Source: a virus. From it: a stretch of DNA of 20,822 nucleotides. The notes below the pieces were generated by a model, which was not told the DNA's origin, did no database searches, and worked only from the letters and a program-made list of their open reading frames with translations. Position numbers and translations under genes: made by a program. Of the stretch, positions 5,052 to 11,681 are shown piece by piece (the stretch's first letter is position 1; each line of letters opens with the position of its first letter). The stretch is from the IMG/VR virus record IMGVR_UViG_3300022752_000009, positions 1 through 20,822 of that record. The stretch is one strand, 5' to 3'.

Positions 5052-5197
5052 TATTTATTCCTTTTCTCCATAGCAATACCAAAGAGCATTAGAAAAGACC
5101 CTCCTAATACTATCGCAGATGGAGCATAAATTAAGTATGCACCTGTGGTAATGGCGATAGATCCTAAAAGCTGTAGCGTTACTGGTAAATATTTCAT
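5051..5197 (-). CDS. 48-aa two-helix membrane protein between TerL and portal
   Basis: The ATG at 5197 shares its A with the TerL stop (TAATG), and the TAA at 5051-5053 shares its last A with the portal ATG. The 48 residues run MKYLPVTLQLLG through GIAMEKRNK. Two hydrophobic stretches, about 4-23 and 27-43, are joined by a short YAPS turn, with a charged C-terminus, so it should be a hairpin in the membrane. Coupling at both ends fills the whole TerL-portal gap, which strongly supports a real gene. Function is unknown; a second holin-like protein or a superinfection-exclusion protein is possible. Confidence 0.75.
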   Translation of the reverse strand: MKYLPVTLQLLGSIAITTGAYLIYAPSAIVLGGSFLMLFGIAMEKRNK

Positions 5198-6603
5198 TAG
5201 TAGATTTTGCTCCTTTGTACTGGCATCTCGATAGGTTCATTTACTACGCCGTATCGTGCCAGTGTTGCAGCGACCAGCGGCGTAATGTTATTTGTGCTAT
5301 TTCTCGACCAAGCCCAGGAATCACCTAAAGCTCTTTTACTAGATCCTACGATGGCCTGTCTTAGATTAGGGTCGTCTAGGTGACAGATGCTTTTAGCCTG
5401 TACAGCATCGTAAAAGGATCCGCAGGCTCTAGCGTAGTCTCTGAGGCCTACGCTAATTACGCCTACGCCTGCATTTTCTAGCTCTCCTATCATTGATGAG
5501 GCTGGAGAGCCATTATCTATAACTACTGGCGCGTTCCATTTTTTCGCAATTTCTATAAGGCGTGGTAATACCCAGTTAGCGCCGTCTTTAGCTTCGATGA
5601 TTTCTACTGGCGTCTTTTCTCTGACTAAACCAGATGCAGCTATAGAGGACTTATCGCGCTCCCTAGATATGTCTACACCTAAGACGATTTTATTACCTAT
5701 GGTTATATCGGTACGAGCTAGGCTGTCCCATAGATCTACGTCTATTACCGCTACGGCTTCTTTAGCAGGCCAGACGTTTAGCCATTCTTTCGTAAATATC
5801 TCTGGGCTGTTCGTGTTAGCAGCTTCTCTTACAGCTTCAATTAATACGCCATTAGACTCACCTAAAGATGGTATCGACTGCGCCCATACTGACTCATCCA
5901 TATAGTCAAATTTCTCCTCACGTGGACACCACTCGAACCAGGCTAGTCTCGTCTGTTTATCGTTAATGTTAGCGTGTGCTACCTCGCGGTAATGCTGTAG
6001 TAGTTCGCTTTTCCCAGGGATACCAGCATTAGACAGGATCCATAACTGTCCATCTTTACGAGTCGCTAGCGTAGGCTGCAGCGAAGCTATAAGACTAAGA
6101 GGATGCATAAGAGCTTCATCGATGACCATTAGATTAAGACTCATACCTCGCGCACCTTTATCGTTAGGTGTGACTATGCCGTATGTAGATCCGCTTTTCA
6201 TATATAGGCGCTCGCTGCCATTTATGTAACTAATACGATGTATGTGTTTAGCAATAGCAGGGCAACGCTCAAAGCTATTTATATGCTCCTGCCATTTTAG
6301 CTTAGCCATATTACGATCCTGAGCTGTATAGGCGACGTGATGGCGCGGCTTTAATAGCTCATAGGCGATACGTGTCTCTACGAGCTTAGACTTTCCAGAC
6401 TGACGACCTACGGCTACGCCTACAGTCCTATACCAGTAATGTCCGTCTACCTTTTCTAAGGCTGTGTCTGCTACTTGTCTCTGCCATTGATAAAGGCTAA
6501 AGCCCATTAGGTTAGCGACCTTCTCTAACTTGTCGCCATCTGTAGCTAGGGCTATATCTCTTTCAGTAGCCCATCTAGGAGGACATACGGTTGCTAAGTC
6601 CAT
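5197..6603 (-). CDS. terL: Terminase large subunit
   Basis: 468 residues. The N-terminal ATPase has Walker A GRQSGKS (66-72) and Walker B LMVIDEA (158-164, D162/E163), with the coupling SNAG motif at 191-194. The C-terminal RNase H-like nuclease shows metal-binding aspartates in LGVDISRERD (D311) and VIDNGS (D363), and ends with the usual LVAATLARYG segment. The motor pumps DNA through the portal and cuts it into genome units. It overlaps the small subunit gene by 10 bases. Confidence 0.95.
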   Translation of the reverse strand: MDLATVCPPRWATERDIALATDGDKLEKVANLMGFSLYQWQRQVADTALEKVDGHYWYRTVGVAVGRQSGKSKLVETRIAYELLKPRHHVAYTAQDRNMAKLKWQEHINSFERCPAIAKHIHRISYINGSERLYMKSGSTYGIVTPNDKGARGMSLNLMVIDEALMHPLSLIASLQPTLATRKDGQLWILSNAGIPGKSELLQHYREVAHANINDKQTRLAWFEWCPREEKFDYMDESVWAQSIPSLGESNGVLIEAVREAANTNSPEIFTKEWLNVWPAKEAVAVIDVDLWDSLARTDITIGNKIVLGVDISRERDKSSIAASGLVREKTPVEIIEAKDGANWVLPRLIEIAKKWNAPVVIDNGSPASSMIGELENAGVGVISVGLRDYARACGSFYDAVQAKSICHLDDPNLRQAIVGSSKRALGDSWAWSRNSTNNITPLVAATLARYGVVNEPIEMPVQRSKIY

Positions 6604-6866
6604 AGCTCGTCTATTGAGTCAGTAGGAGCTATCTTAAACCAGATCTCTCGTAGCTCCTTAGATATGGCTGGTATTGAATTTATAGCCTGGTTGCTTTCCT
6701 CTATCTGATCCCAGGCAGCGGTAAGACCTAGTAGCATCGTTCGCGTGACTGCATCGATGTCAGTGCGACCCTTTAGCATCCGCTTCATAGCTCTCACGTG
6801 TCTACCTGATCTACGTCGCCTACCACTTACGGCTACGTCTAACGGCCTGTCTGATTTTGTTACCAT
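6594..6866 (-). CDS. Putative terminase small subunit
   Basis: 90 residues from the ATG at 6866 (MVTKSDRPLDV), chosen because GAGGGGAG lies just upstream; an in-frame ATG at 6920 would add 18 residues but has no comparable signal. The N-terminus is arginine-rich (SGRRRRSGRHVRAMKRML), then amphipathic helices (AVTRTMLLGLTAAWDQIEE). No clear helix-turn-helix can be pointed to. The assignment as TerS, the DNA-recognition ring of the terminase, depends on its place between HNH and TerL. It overlaps the HNH gene by 47 bases. Confidence 0.6.
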   Translation of the reverse strand: MVTKSDRPLDVAVSGRRRRSGRHVRAMKRMLKGRTDIDAVTRTMLLGLTAAWDQIEESNQAINSIPAISKELREIWFKIAPTDSIDELWT

Positions 6867-7080
6867 AAATCGCTCCCCTCGAATAATTACACTTGCTGCA
6901 GGCTGGTCGCAGCTGTCCACGCCAGAGCCTCATATCTGTCACCGTATCTACAGGAGGATCGTGGTCTGCAGTCGTAGCAGGTCTGAGATGACACCAGTAG
7001 CAGGTCGGATTACCAGCCAAAATAATCTTTCGAGCTTTTCTATATTCTCGTCCATATTTCAAATGATGCGGATGTTTCAT
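6820..7080 (-). CDS. HNH endonuclease next to terminase
   Basis: 86 residues. A zinc-knuckle HNH fold is visible: CYWC (C27, C30), the catalytic ADHDPP (D39, H40) and CSKCN (C61, C64, N65). HNH proteins beside terminase genes are known to assist TerL in cos cleavage in HK97-like phages, and the position here fits. No Shine-Dalgarno sequence is seen: the 30 bases before the ATG are almost all A/T. A weak, leaderless or controlled start is therefore possible. The end overlaps TerS. Confidence 0.85.
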   Translation of the reverse strand: MKHPHHLKYGREYRKARKIILAGNPTCYWCHLRPATTADHDPPVDTVTDMRLWRGQLRPACSKCNYSRGAIYGNKIRQAVRRSRKW

Positions 7081-7104
7081 AACTTTTTGTTATTTATTTT
7101 TTTG

Positions 7105-7113
7105 TTTTCCACA
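7105..7113 (+). promoter_or_regulatory. DnaA-box-like site TTTTCCACA
   Basis: Eight of nine bases match the consensus TTATCCACA. It lies 16 bases before the perfect box and is followed by AGG in the same way. Confidence 0.5.
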
Positions 7114-7120
7114 GGTCGCG

Positions 7121-7129
7121 TTATCCACA
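7121..7129 (+). promoter_or_regulatory. Consensus DnaA box TTATCCACA
   Basis: A perfect match to the classic high-affinity DnaA box. One such 9-mer can occur by chance in 20 kb, but a second near-match 16 bases away beside an AT-rich tract makes it more credible. Confidence 0.6.
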
Positions 7130-7144
7130 GGGGGGAGAGATAAA

Positions 7145-7174
7145 CGCGCACCGCGGCGTATCGCAGGTGCTGCG
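7145..7174. repeat. Bulged GC-rich hairpin beside DnaA boxes
   Basis: Arms CGC-GCACC-GCG (7145-7155) and CGC-a-GGTGC-t-GCG (7162-7174) give 11 pairs with two single-base bulges around a six-base loop. It can form as a cruciform or in minus-strand RNA, where only a weak TTTATCTC follows. It could be part of the origin or cos, or a weak terminator. Confidence 0.5.
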
Positions 7175-7199
7175 TGTGGGAAAAAACGCCCATAATTGA

Positions 7200-7457
7200 T
7201 TAATCGACTCGCGTAGTTAATACGTATAGATCGTGAGATCCTGTAGATGCTACGACGTTAAGCTCGCAGCCTTGCGGTACTGTAATTACTAGCTTGTCCC
7301 CATTATCCAATAAGAAGCCAGTACTGGAAGTGACACCTGTGTTACCTATGTAAGTCGCGCCTTTACTGTGTAGGTGTACATACTGCGTCACGTTATCTAT
7401 TGATGCGATTACCTGAGCTGTTGTCGTCACTGATACTTTACTGCTCGTAGTTGCCAT
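7200..7457 (-). CDS. Small beta-rich protein, possible virion decoration
   Basis: 85 residues, rich in Thr, Ser and Val with almost no predicted helix (SVTTTAQVIASID, KGATYIGNTGV, DKLVITVPQGCEL). This resembles small beta-sandwich proteins that phages attach to heads or fibres. No catalytic motif is seen and the family is not certain. The ATG overlaps the TAA of the glycosyltransferase gene (TAATG), so the two are made together; the protein could be a substrate or partner of that enzyme, which is inference only. Confidence 0.6.
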   Translation of the reverse strand: MATTSSKVSVTTTAQVIASIDNVTQYVHLHSKGATYIGNTGVTSSTGFLLDNGDKLVITVPQGCELNVVASTGSHDLYVLTTRVD

Positions 7458-9181: not shown

Positions 9182-9213
9182 CTCTATCCCTTCACTGGTA
9201 AGGGTTTATCACT

Positions 9214-9254
9214 TGGTTTTATTATATTTTATTTTATGTATTTTTATATATATG
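9214..9254 (-). promoter_or_regulatory. AT-rich tract with TATAAT, candidate promoter
   Basis: A nearly pure A/T stretch with alternating TATATATA and a TATAAT (9221-9226 on the minus strand) about 40 bases before the first gene of the transcript. No good -35 hexamer stands 16-18 bases upstream, so the promoter call is tentative; DNA melting at an origin is an alternative. Confidence 0.35.
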
Positions 9255-9282
9255 ACCTGATACCAGAGCTAAAAGAGAAATG

Positions 9283-9316
9283 CCCCCCTACCCCCCATTA
9301 ATTAAAAATAATTAAT
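9283..9316. repeat. Paired C6/G6 runs and ATTAATTA inverted repeat
   Basis: CCCCCC-TA-CCCCCC (9283-9296) is followed directly by ATTAATTA-AAAA-TAATTAAT (9297-9316), a perfect 8-bp stem. The minus strand therefore carries GGGGGG-TA-GGGGGG, capable of G-G structures. Confidence 0.7.
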
Positions 9317-9358
9317 AGTGAGTAGTGGAGGATCCCTGTAGCTTTGTTTAGATCTTGA

Positions 9359-9367
9359 TGACCGTCA
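9359..9367. promoter_or_regulatory. TGACCGTCA dyad
   Basis: A 9-base dyad (TGAC-C-GTCA) inside the leader, next to a TTGACG on the minus strand. It could be an operator, but it is short and may be chance. Confidence 0.25.
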
Positions 9368-9392
9368 ACCGTCGCCGTAAGAGTTCCTGCCC

Positions 9393-9408
9393 CCAGTCTT
9401 TCGACCAG
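9393..9408 (-). promoter_or_regulatory. GNRA-capped hairpin in leader
   Basis: The minus-strand RNA CUGGUC-GAAA-GACUGG forms six pairs (two G-U) closed by a GAAA tetraloop. It lies between the terminator and the first gene and may belong to a larger structured leader RNA. Confidence 0.4.
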
Positions 9409-9434
9409 ATAAAACTATAGACCATCCTGGCGAC

Positions 9435-9476
9435 AAAAGAGAAAAGGGACTACTACCGCAGATGGAAAGTAGTCCC
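9435..9476 (-). terminator. Intrinsic terminator after the DNA genes
   Basis: On the minus strand GGGACTACT (9476-9468) pairs perfectly with AGTAGTCCC (9454-9446) around a 13-base loop, followed at once by TTTTCTCTTTT. Stem plus U-rich tail is the classic rho-independent form. It is the only clear one in the genome and closes the transcript that ends with the putative nuclease gene. Confidence 0.88.
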
Positions 9477-9482
9477 AGTCTC

Positions 9483-9508
9483 CTTACGCGTACCCTCAGT
9501 AGCGTAAG
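9483..9508 (-). repeat. Hairpin just after the last DNA gene
   Basis: CTTACGC-g-TAC and GTA-GCGTAAG pair over 10 bases with one bulge, starting 10 bases past the stop codon and just before the terminator. It may help protect or process the transcript end. Confidence 0.5.
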
Positions 9509-9517
9509 CCTATGTAT

Positions 9518-10033
9518 CTATGTAGGCCGAGCCCCCAAAGTGGCTAAAAACGGCCTTACAGCCTCTTTATAGGGCATATAATCGTATAGTCTGTCCTTAG
9601 GTATAAACCAGGTCTCCTCATCCTCTAGCTTATATTCGTCTATACGGCCTAAATAAACAGGGTAGTAACCTACTAAAAATAGAGTACTAAGTGATGAGCC
9701 TTGCACTAGGAAAGCTACGTCGCCATCGCGATCATAATGACGCAGGATAAGATTATTAGACCGCGACCAGCGCACCTCGACATTATCGCCTACGTCAGCT
9801 TTATCCTTAAAAGTGTTGAGGCCGTTCCAGTCAAGCCCTAATAACCTGGCTACGCCTATCTCAGCACCGTAAGCCATCTGCATCTCATACTTACGCTCGT
9901 AGTCATTTTTCCAGGGTACGGCTCTAGTGTGAGGGTTATCCGTCTCCTGTGTTTTCTTTGACCACTCGATAAAGAAATCTGCAGCTTGTCTCGCCAATTT
10001 CATATCAAGATCGTGTAAGGGTAATGGCCTCAT
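9518..10033 (-). CDS. Possible PD-(D/E)XK-like nuclease
   Basis: 171 residues. The layout helix-Glu (AYGAEIGVARLLG, E58), then KADVGDNVEVRW with D80, E86 and R88, then strands (LILRHYDRD, VAFLVQG, LFLVGYYP) resembles a PD-(D/E)XK fold in which Lys is replaced by Arg. The gene starts by a 4-base ATGA overlap with the Rad52-like annealase. An exonuclease next to an annealing protein is a common phage recombination pair, so that role is plausible. The fold is inferred by eye, and the missing lysine could mean an inactive or different protein. Confidence 0.45.
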   Translation of the reverse strand: MRPLPLHDLDMKLARQAADFFIEWSKKTQETDNPHTRAVPWKNDYERKYEMQMAYGAEIGVARLLGLDWNGLNTFKDKADVGDNVEVRWSRSNNLILRHYDRDGDVAFLVQGSSLSTLFLVGYYPVYLGRIDEYKLEDEETWFIPKDRLYDYMPYKEAVRPFLATLGARPT

Positions 10034-10707
10034 TTTTTCCAGGGCTTACCCTCTAAAGACATTGGCGTACATTGTTCAGTATATGGCTTACGCTGACAAA
10101 ATAGACCCTCGTATGGCTTACCGCTATTACTTGTCCCAGATCTATAAACGCGGCAGGCCATCTCTCTATGGTTGCAGTAAGGCTCACCCTCAGGCGGTAC
10201 TACTTTCGTAGGCTCTGACTCTGGTCGCTGTGAATCTAAAAAGGCTGCTAATTCAGGATTATCAGTCTCTACAGCTTTAAGAGGTGGGACAGAGCGTAGA
10301 GGTGGCGTGAAAGGTGTAGCCGCCAGCTCTACGCTCGAACCGTTGCTATCTGCTCCCCAAAGATCGAGAGCGACGCCAAAACGCATCGCTGCATTTTTTA
10401 TAGCGTCACTGATAGCAGTCTTAACCGCATCGGCCCCTTTTTGATGCGGCTCAGATGCACCGTAACCGATTCTAGTTACGCCGCATACTGTAAGTCTGAT
10501 CCATAGGCCGTTAAATTCATCTAATACTGGAGAGCCATTATCAGCTATAGCCATAGGCTGCCAATACCAGGCAGGATCTACAGAAATTAATCTATCTGTG
10601 ACTACTGCGTGATTAATAAAATTATAGGATCTCTGTCCTACATTTTTAGCCTCTATCTGATCATCTCTAAAAGGCGCACGTAATGCTTTAGCTTTGTCCT
10701 CGTTCAT
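10030..10707 (-). CDS. Rad52/Sak-like single-strand annealing protein
   Basis: 225 residues. Residues 27-118 show the core of the phage Rad52-type annealase group: NFINHAVVTDRLISVDP, GLWIRLTVCGVTRIGYG and the helix AVKTAISDAIKNAAMRFGVAL before DLW. A flexible proline-rich linker (130-175) leads to a C-terminal module with C178, H180, C185, C204 and C213 around RSGTSNSGKPYEGLFC, probably metal binding. It would pair complementary single strands during recombination-dependent replication and repair. It starts immediately after the stop of the 169-aa gene. Confidence 0.75.
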   Translation of the reverse strand: MNEDKAKALRAPFRDDQIEAKNVGQRSYNFINHAVVTDRLISVDPAWYWQPMAIADNGSPVLDEFNGLWIRLTVCGVTRIGYGASEPHQKGADAVKTAISDAIKNAAMRFGVALDLWGADSNGSSVELAATPFTPPLRSVPPLKAVETDNPELAAFLDSQRPESEPTKVVPPEGEPYCNHREMACRVYRSGTSNSGKPYEGLFCQRKPYTEQCTPMSLEGKPWKK

Positions 10708-11217
10708 TTACTCGATCTCCTTGCGTCTCTGTGACTCGACATAAATATTTAACCAGGGCAGCGACGTCACTCGATGCTCTCGAATTGCATCTAACACAGC
10801 TGCTCGACCCTCAGGAGAGAAGCGTGTAGAGACGTATGGAGCTTTAGTATCAAGTCCTATAAAAGGTAATACCTCACCTGTCATAGTGCTAAATATCTGG
10901 CTCTCAGGTGTTATAGCTAAGGTGTCTAAAAATTTCTTTCGAAATGACTCGCGCACTTTAGGCTCTATTTCACTAGGAAAATTCTCAATAATCCAAGTTA
11001 CTAAAGCCTTTTCGTCAGTAACTACAAAAGATACATCTCGACTAACTAAGGTTATCTTGGCTACCTCTTGATTATCGATAATAGCCTTAGTCATATCAGC
11101 GCCTACATTAGTTAGCTCATCTCTGGCTAATTCTCTTAATGTATTAGTCGCCTCTGTTACTGCATCCTTTATTACTGTTAGCGCTGCTAATTCTGACGCT
11201 ATATCTTTTAAGTTCAT
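10708..11217 (-). CDS. Unknown protein in recombination cluster
   Basis: 169 residues, mostly helical and charged. The N-terminal helices (KDIASELAALTVIKDAV, NTLRELARDELTN) are followed by a beta segment (VAKITLVSRDVSFVVTD), then helices (ALVTWIIENFPSEI, KVRESFRKKFLDTL) and a C-terminal part with SPEGRAAVLDAIREHRV. No catalytic or metal motif is seen. Its position between Prim-Pol and the annealase suggests a role in DNA replication or recombination, for example DNA binding. The start is coupled to Prim-Pol by TAATG. Confidence 0.8.
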   Translation of the reverse strand: MNLKDIASELAALTVIKDAVTEATNTLRELARDELTNVGADMTKAIIDNQEVAKITLVSRDVSFVVTDEKALVTWIIENFPSEIEPKVRESFRKKFLDTLAITPESQIFSTMTGEVLPFIGLDTKAPYVSTRFSPEGRAAVLDAIREHRVTSLPWLNIYVESQRRKEIE

Positions 11218-11681
11218 TACACACCTACCAGATCAGAAATTGGTTTAATATCGCTTAGGTCGTCGACCAAGTAGTAACTACCGCTCGGATGCTTAGATGG
11301 AGCAGCTACTACGTAACCGTTCCACTTAATATCTACACCCTCGCGCCATTTACCAGGGAAAGTCATATCGGCAGATGCCCAGTAGTAGTAATGGAATCCA
11401 TTACCTGTCTTTATACGTCTGGTCTCTGTTAGGCCGTCTATCGTGCCGCCATTACGTAGATCTACGTCAAAGACGACGAGATTAGATGGCTTACAGGCTA
11501 TTCCTATGTTTATGTCAGGCTGAGCCTTGAACCACTTATGAATAACCTCTATGTCGTCTGTGGCGCTATGTAGTCCACGTGGAGCGAATCTCTTATGAGG
11601 CTGTTTAGCTGCTACGCCTAAAGGCAAAATCTTAAAGCCTAGAGCTGCGTATGTAATCGCGTAATCATAGATACGGTTCAT
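11217..11681 (-). CDS. Primase-polymerase (Prim-Pol) domain protein
   Basis: 154 residues, a stand-alone N-terminal domain of the bifunctional DNA primase/polymerase family. All three active-site motifs are visible: VVFDVDLRNGG (D72, D74), KTGNGFHYYY (H97) and EGVDIKWNGYVVAAPS (D117). The family binds nucleotides and two metals and makes primers. It usually precedes a helicase domain, which is absent here, and no helicase or polymerase gene exists elsewhere. It probably primes synthesis for host enzymes. Its ATG overlaps the stop of the 54-aa membrane protein (TAATG). Confidence 0.9.
   Translation of the reverse strand: MNRIYDYAITYAALGFKILPLGVAAKQPHKRFAPRGLHSATDDIEVIHKWFKAQPDINIGIACKPSNLVVFDVDLRNGGTIDGLTETRRIKTGNGFHYYYWASADMTFPGKWREGVDIKWNGYVVAAPSKHPSGSYYLVDDLSDIKPISDLVGV

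Follow-up and report, generated by a model that had tools for sequence, protein, structure and literature searches.

Function of the gap

The locus raises the question of what a small gap between two genes does in the genome of an uncultured phage: whether replication starts there, whether the genome is cut and packaged there, or whether both take place on the same DNA. The window, by which we mean the whole stretch of 20,822 bases that was analysed, is a circular IMG/VR virus contig with a 105-bp end repeat and 20,717 unique bases, and all the genes assigned in it lie on the minus strand. The gap (7081-7199) has the gene of an HNH endonuclease on one side and an 85-aa gene on the other (Table 1), and the packaging genes stand in the order HNH, a small gene of 90-108 aa, the terminase large subunit (TerL), portal, protease and capsid.

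With reference to an earlier note on this DNA, the gap had been proposed as an origin fired by host DnaA, possibly shared with the packaging site, and the sequence elements that it named were all found. The consensus DnaA box TTATCCACA and its near copy TTTTCCACA are present 16 nt apart, the A/T tract lies at about 7081-7108, the G-run reads GGGGGG at 7130-7135 of the plus strand, and the hairpin, at about 7144-7175, has a predicted DNA folding energy of -12.5 kcal/mol (z = -4.3). The description of the phage as having a Prim-Pol without helicase or polymerase also held, as the Prim-Pol was the sole replication enzyme found and no helicase or polymerase family match was obtained among the proteins scanned. 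This Prim-Pol is just 154 aa long (11217-11681, minus strand), and by tblastn a homologue is absent from L053, L056 and L022, which are relatives with the same cos. A single-strand annealing protein is encoded at 10030-10707 (minus strand), and its C-terminal part is like gp49 of the mycobacteriophages L5 and D29.

From the analysis below, the gap is most probably the cos site of a tailed phage of 20-22 kb, whose packaging enzymes would be an HNH endonuclease and the two terminase subunits, small and large, a reading to which we assign a probability of about 0.94.

Table 1. Features in and around the gap, with positions in the window and the basis of each
Feature	Position	Strand	Basis
TerL, terminase large subunit	5197..6603	-	phrog_9, E 2.6e-63
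90-aa helical protein, small-terminase candidate by position	6594..6866	-	family alignment; helical model pLDDT 75
HNH endonuclease, first gene of virion map	6820..7080	-	PHROG HNH families, E 3.8e-8
Second repeat, TTTTCCACA (TGTGGAAAA in gene orientation)	7105..7113	+	lost in L058 clade
First repeat, DnaA-box-like, TTATCCACA (TGTGGATAA in gene orientation)	7121..7129	+	exact in 10/64 spanning sites
Pyrimidine tract TCTCTCCCCCC (= plus-strand G-run), candidate small-terminase site	7130..7140	-	conserved across clades
First bases of left genome end, GTGCGCGTTTA	7141..7151	-	~28 relatives' contigs start after GCCGCS; L188 adapter joint
Bulged hairpin over cut region, private to window's lineage	7144..7175	-	z -4.3 in window
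cosN GCCGCG, putative 6-nt 3' overhang between genome ends	7152..7157	-	missing between right and left contig ends; spanning relatives GCCGCC or GCCGCG
ATAC, last double-stranded bases of right genome end	7158..7161	-	26/32 relatives' contigs
GTTTTTTCC element, right-end side of cos	7179..7187	-	invariant in 15-sequence alignment; nearly all spanning loci reached via neighbouring gene
85-aa gene, last before right genome end	7200..7457	-	relatives' contigs stop ~45 nt past gene

Genome ends in the contigs of relatives

The genome ends were read from the ends of relatives' assembled contigs in the public collection. Forty-one loci were obtained when relatives of TerL were searched for, and many of them begin within the gap, approximately 545 nt upstream of the TerL gene; repeating the search with a more distant TerL (70% identical) as the query led to the same picture. 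Counting as left ends the contig ends within 1.5 kb of TerL, we observed that 13 of 18 fell in one 32-nt slot in the first search, against 0.38 expected, and 28 of 46 in the search from the distant TerL, against 0.98 expected. The left starts are exact to the base, namely GTGTTCG for the near relatives, GT[TGC]C for the distant clade, and CCCCATG and CGTTCC for L026 and L023, respectively, and, judged against relatives that read through the site, each of them is the base after GCCGC[C/G]. Exact left bases were thus available for two large clades, as well as for two smaller clades via the comparison with spanning relatives; L018 and L019 could not be placed exactly because no sequence spanning their site was found.

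The right ends were obtained from contigs reached through the neighbouring glycosyltransferase and 85-aa genes. They finish in ...GATAC, ...GATAT or ...AATAC, and 26 of the 32 contigs that reach the T-tract stop exactly after ATAC or ATAT, while the left ends begin 6 nt later than this stop. One contig (3300028571_000144, 21,429 nt) has both ends exact, three others (L015, L119 and L250) end a few bases off, and in L188 the Illumina adapter sequence TGCTCTTCCGATCT is fused directly to the first left base. Likely adapter remnants at natural phage ends of public contigs were also noticed more generally, being clear in L188, likely in L105 and reduced to one extra A in L079.

The relatives' contig ends therefore cluster at single bases of one site, beside which the HNH and TerL genes lie. 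The end-repair step of library preparation fills in 5' overhangs and removes 3' ones, and in assembly contig limits come to lie at cos (PhageTerm paper, PMC5557969). A 5' overhang would leave the cohesive sequence on both ends, whereas GCCGCS is missing from both, and given this end-repair logic the simplest explanation is a 3' overhang of approximately 6 nt, which in the window would be GCCGCG (7157-7152, minus strand), probably trimmed in library making. Six nucleotides are fewer than the roughly 9-15 nt usual in the cultured relatives checked, a length that is not part of the definition of a cos site. Direct terminal repeats and headful ends were rejected, as the contig ends have no common repeat and do not scatter.

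It might be argued that the contigs break here as an artefact of assembly, since the window carries a strong hairpin and a G-run at the gap, both of which could be hard to sequence. Such an origin of the breaks is extremely improbable, because the break falls at the same base in relatives that have no hairpin, the adapter of L188 is joined at the cut base, and other contigs, the window among them, read straight through. The hairpin is absent from L004, L009 and L098 (fold z of 0.2, 0.1 and -0.8, respectively), and as it is missing in the relatives tested, it was discarded as a functional element.

In the cos reading, the pyrimidine tract and the repeats, a short way in from the left end, would be where the packaging machine docks, and TerL together with the HNH endonuclease would cut the two strands in a staggered way, so that 3' overhangs of about 6 nt remain, here GCCGCG. 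Packaging would then run from the HNH/TerL end, and after injection the sticky ends would re-anneal and close the circle, which would explain why the assembly of the window is circular and runs through the site.

Conserved core and the small-terminase question

A core of GTTTTTTCC-N-ATACGCCGC-N-TCTCTCnCCCC is kept in all the clades examined. The 38 non-redundant sites have in common TTTTTTCC, a version of ATACGCCGC and the TCTCTC/CCCC tract, a count that overstates conservation because the collecting pattern contains parts of these elements. The scan of IMG/VR with the core motif is likewise partly circular as a conservation test, its pattern being derived from the relatives; it supplied 59 newly fetched loci, four of which are unrelated and without the pyrimidine tract. 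Spanning loci that came from protein searches alone show the same core elements, and a phage contig whose TerL is 54% identical, and which was binned with an Acidimicrobiaceae MAG, has a looser version of the core. As for the host, the one genome-collection match, to an Acidimicrobiaceae MAG contig, was too weak for naming it.

Measured from the cut, positions of about +12 to +31 are taken up by the pyrimidine tract together with the first repeat; in HK97, the small terminase (TerS) binds +15 to +29 of the phage's cos, in a site that ends in an A-tract (PMC11331095). The side with the pyrimidine tract and the repeat is thus most likely the docking site of the terminase, and the overlap of the boxes with the position of TerS binding on the HK97 cos makes a packaging role for them more likely. 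More specifically, the TGTGGAWAA repeats may be contact sites of the small terminase, similar to cosB and specific to the clade through co-evolution, which would add to the cos reading and which we consider an even chance. With a start approximately 23 nt in from the left end, they overlap the position of the HK97 TerS site (PMC11331095), and they are direct repeats that follow immediately on the family-wide pyrimidine tract; on the other hand, distant clades retain the tract without the repeat.

The small terminase itself would be the 90-aa protein, by position only. Homology did not identify it as such, since no Pfam match and no credible NCBIfam or PDB sequence match were obtained, and its fold model found no match among solved structures. 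In L053 and L056 there is about 1.5 kb extra between HNH and TerL, and the gene of 90-108 aa has no match there.

DnaA boxes and the origin of replication

In the window, boxes with one mismatch are not enriched (4 found, 3.9 expected). An exact box by itself appeared in 35 of 300 Markov sequences, and a close pair with one exact copy in none of them, so the observation of the box pair stands. The earlier note had named missing conservation in relatives as a finding that would speak against its proposal, and this is what we observed: the exact box stands beside cos in only 10 of the 64 spanning sites, all of them close relatives, in addition to L062 (TerL 76% identical), where it occupies the same place, while the cos core is found in all clades examined. 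L018 and L019 are without the exact box at the left-end position. L052 and L055, which are the right ends of the L018 and L019 contigs, have TGTGGATAA on the right-end side of cos, 65 nt before the contig end, and in the window it is on the left-end side. There may therefore be something that retains TGTGGATAA close to cos within this branch of the family, whereas the wider family does without it. Our literature search on DnaA boxes at phage cos sites found nothing relevant.

If the gap were a replication origin, host DnaA would bind the two boxes and melt the adjoining A/T tract. The improbability by chance of an exact box with a near copy 16 nt apart argues for this, together with the fixation of the exact box in near relatives, its occurrence across cos in L052/L055 and at the same place in L062, and the fact that no replicative helicase was found. 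Against it, the boxes are absent from most relatives having the same cos, and the A/T tract is not the AT-richest part of the genome, with 72% inside the gap compared with 88% in the 50 nt at 9204. Typical DnaA origins hold more than two boxes, and only two are present here. GC skew adds nothing: the extremes of the detrended skew on the closed circle fall at 2,719 and 20,315, away from the gap, and the amplitude lies within that of block shuffles, with the genes all on one strand, making this check uninformative. A DnaA origin in the gap is possible but unlikely. Thus, of the proposal that packaging site and origin share the gap, the packaging part is strongly supported by the contig ends that cluster there, and the part that invoked an origin fired by host DnaA is not supported, with the boxes gone in most relatives.

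For the near clade, one could also imagine cos and origin as one element, in which the TGTGGAWAA repeats, no more than 25-50 nt away from the packaging cut, are bound by a host initiator, be it DnaA or a different one. We hold this to be quite improbable; if it were true, replication start and genome cutting would compete for the same DNA.

A better origin candidate than the gap is the noncoding element at 9182-9517 (minus strand). It consists of a CTGGTCG-AAAGACTGGGGGCAGGAACTC core and a long G-run hairpin with a GGGGGGTAGGGGGG arm, and after the hairpin come the 50 nt with the highest AT content in the genome (88% at 9204). In relatives it is conserved with 72-96% identity over 190-336 nt, its predicted fold has a z of -4.2, and 10 of its 32 consensus pairs are changed on both sides; no Rfam family at threshold and no tRNA match were obtained. 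If the phage has a cis origin at all, its conservation, fold, two-sided pair changes and AT maximum tentatively point to this element, but a structured RNA or a leader would fit just as well, and in the distant clade the G-run pair occurs patchily, so that the assignment is rather doubtful.

Implications and comparison with known systems

For an uncultured phage family that is known here from metagenomes alone, our data provide genome ends at the level of the base and, as a likely assignment, the polarity of packaging. They indicate that the ends of public contigs can by themselves map cos sites without reads, they remove what is likely a false origin call, and the conserved core could be used for orienting contigs of the family and judging their completeness. 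The site is of an ordinary kind, a 3' cos, in a family where contig ends had to reveal it.

As in bacterial clusters of the oriC type, a consensus TTATCCACA box and a near-consensus one lie next to an A/T tract in the gap; in contrast to those clusters, the gap has only two boxes, which are not conserved in the family and lie inside a cos site.

Cultured Arthrobacter phages with defined cohesive ends carry 3' overhangs of 9-13 nt (PMC4205034, PMC5513430), with 13 bases in Vulture (cluster AK, KU160671), 11 in the Prospero/Jessica type (cluster AN) and 9 in ArV2. The TerL proteins of Vulture and Prospero are about 29% identical to that of the window. The left end of Vulture, GTGTCCTCTCCCTCCCCGGC (GTGTCCTCTCCCTCCCC), which goes with its 13-base 3' end (PMC5513430), resembles the left end found here. 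As in our family, HNH is next to an end in these phages, but Vulture, Prospero and Kepler have it as their last gene, at the right end, and here it comes first, at the left end.

HK97 (TerS gp1, TerL gp2, HNH gp74) is like the present family in having HNH and terminase genes at the ends, a 3' overhang and a recognition sequence that lies a short way in from the left end (PMC9410871, PMC11331095). Its host is E. coli, and its overhang is 10 nt, or 12 in one passage of the same paper, compared with a putative 6 here. The comparison with HK97 covers gene content, overhang type and layout.
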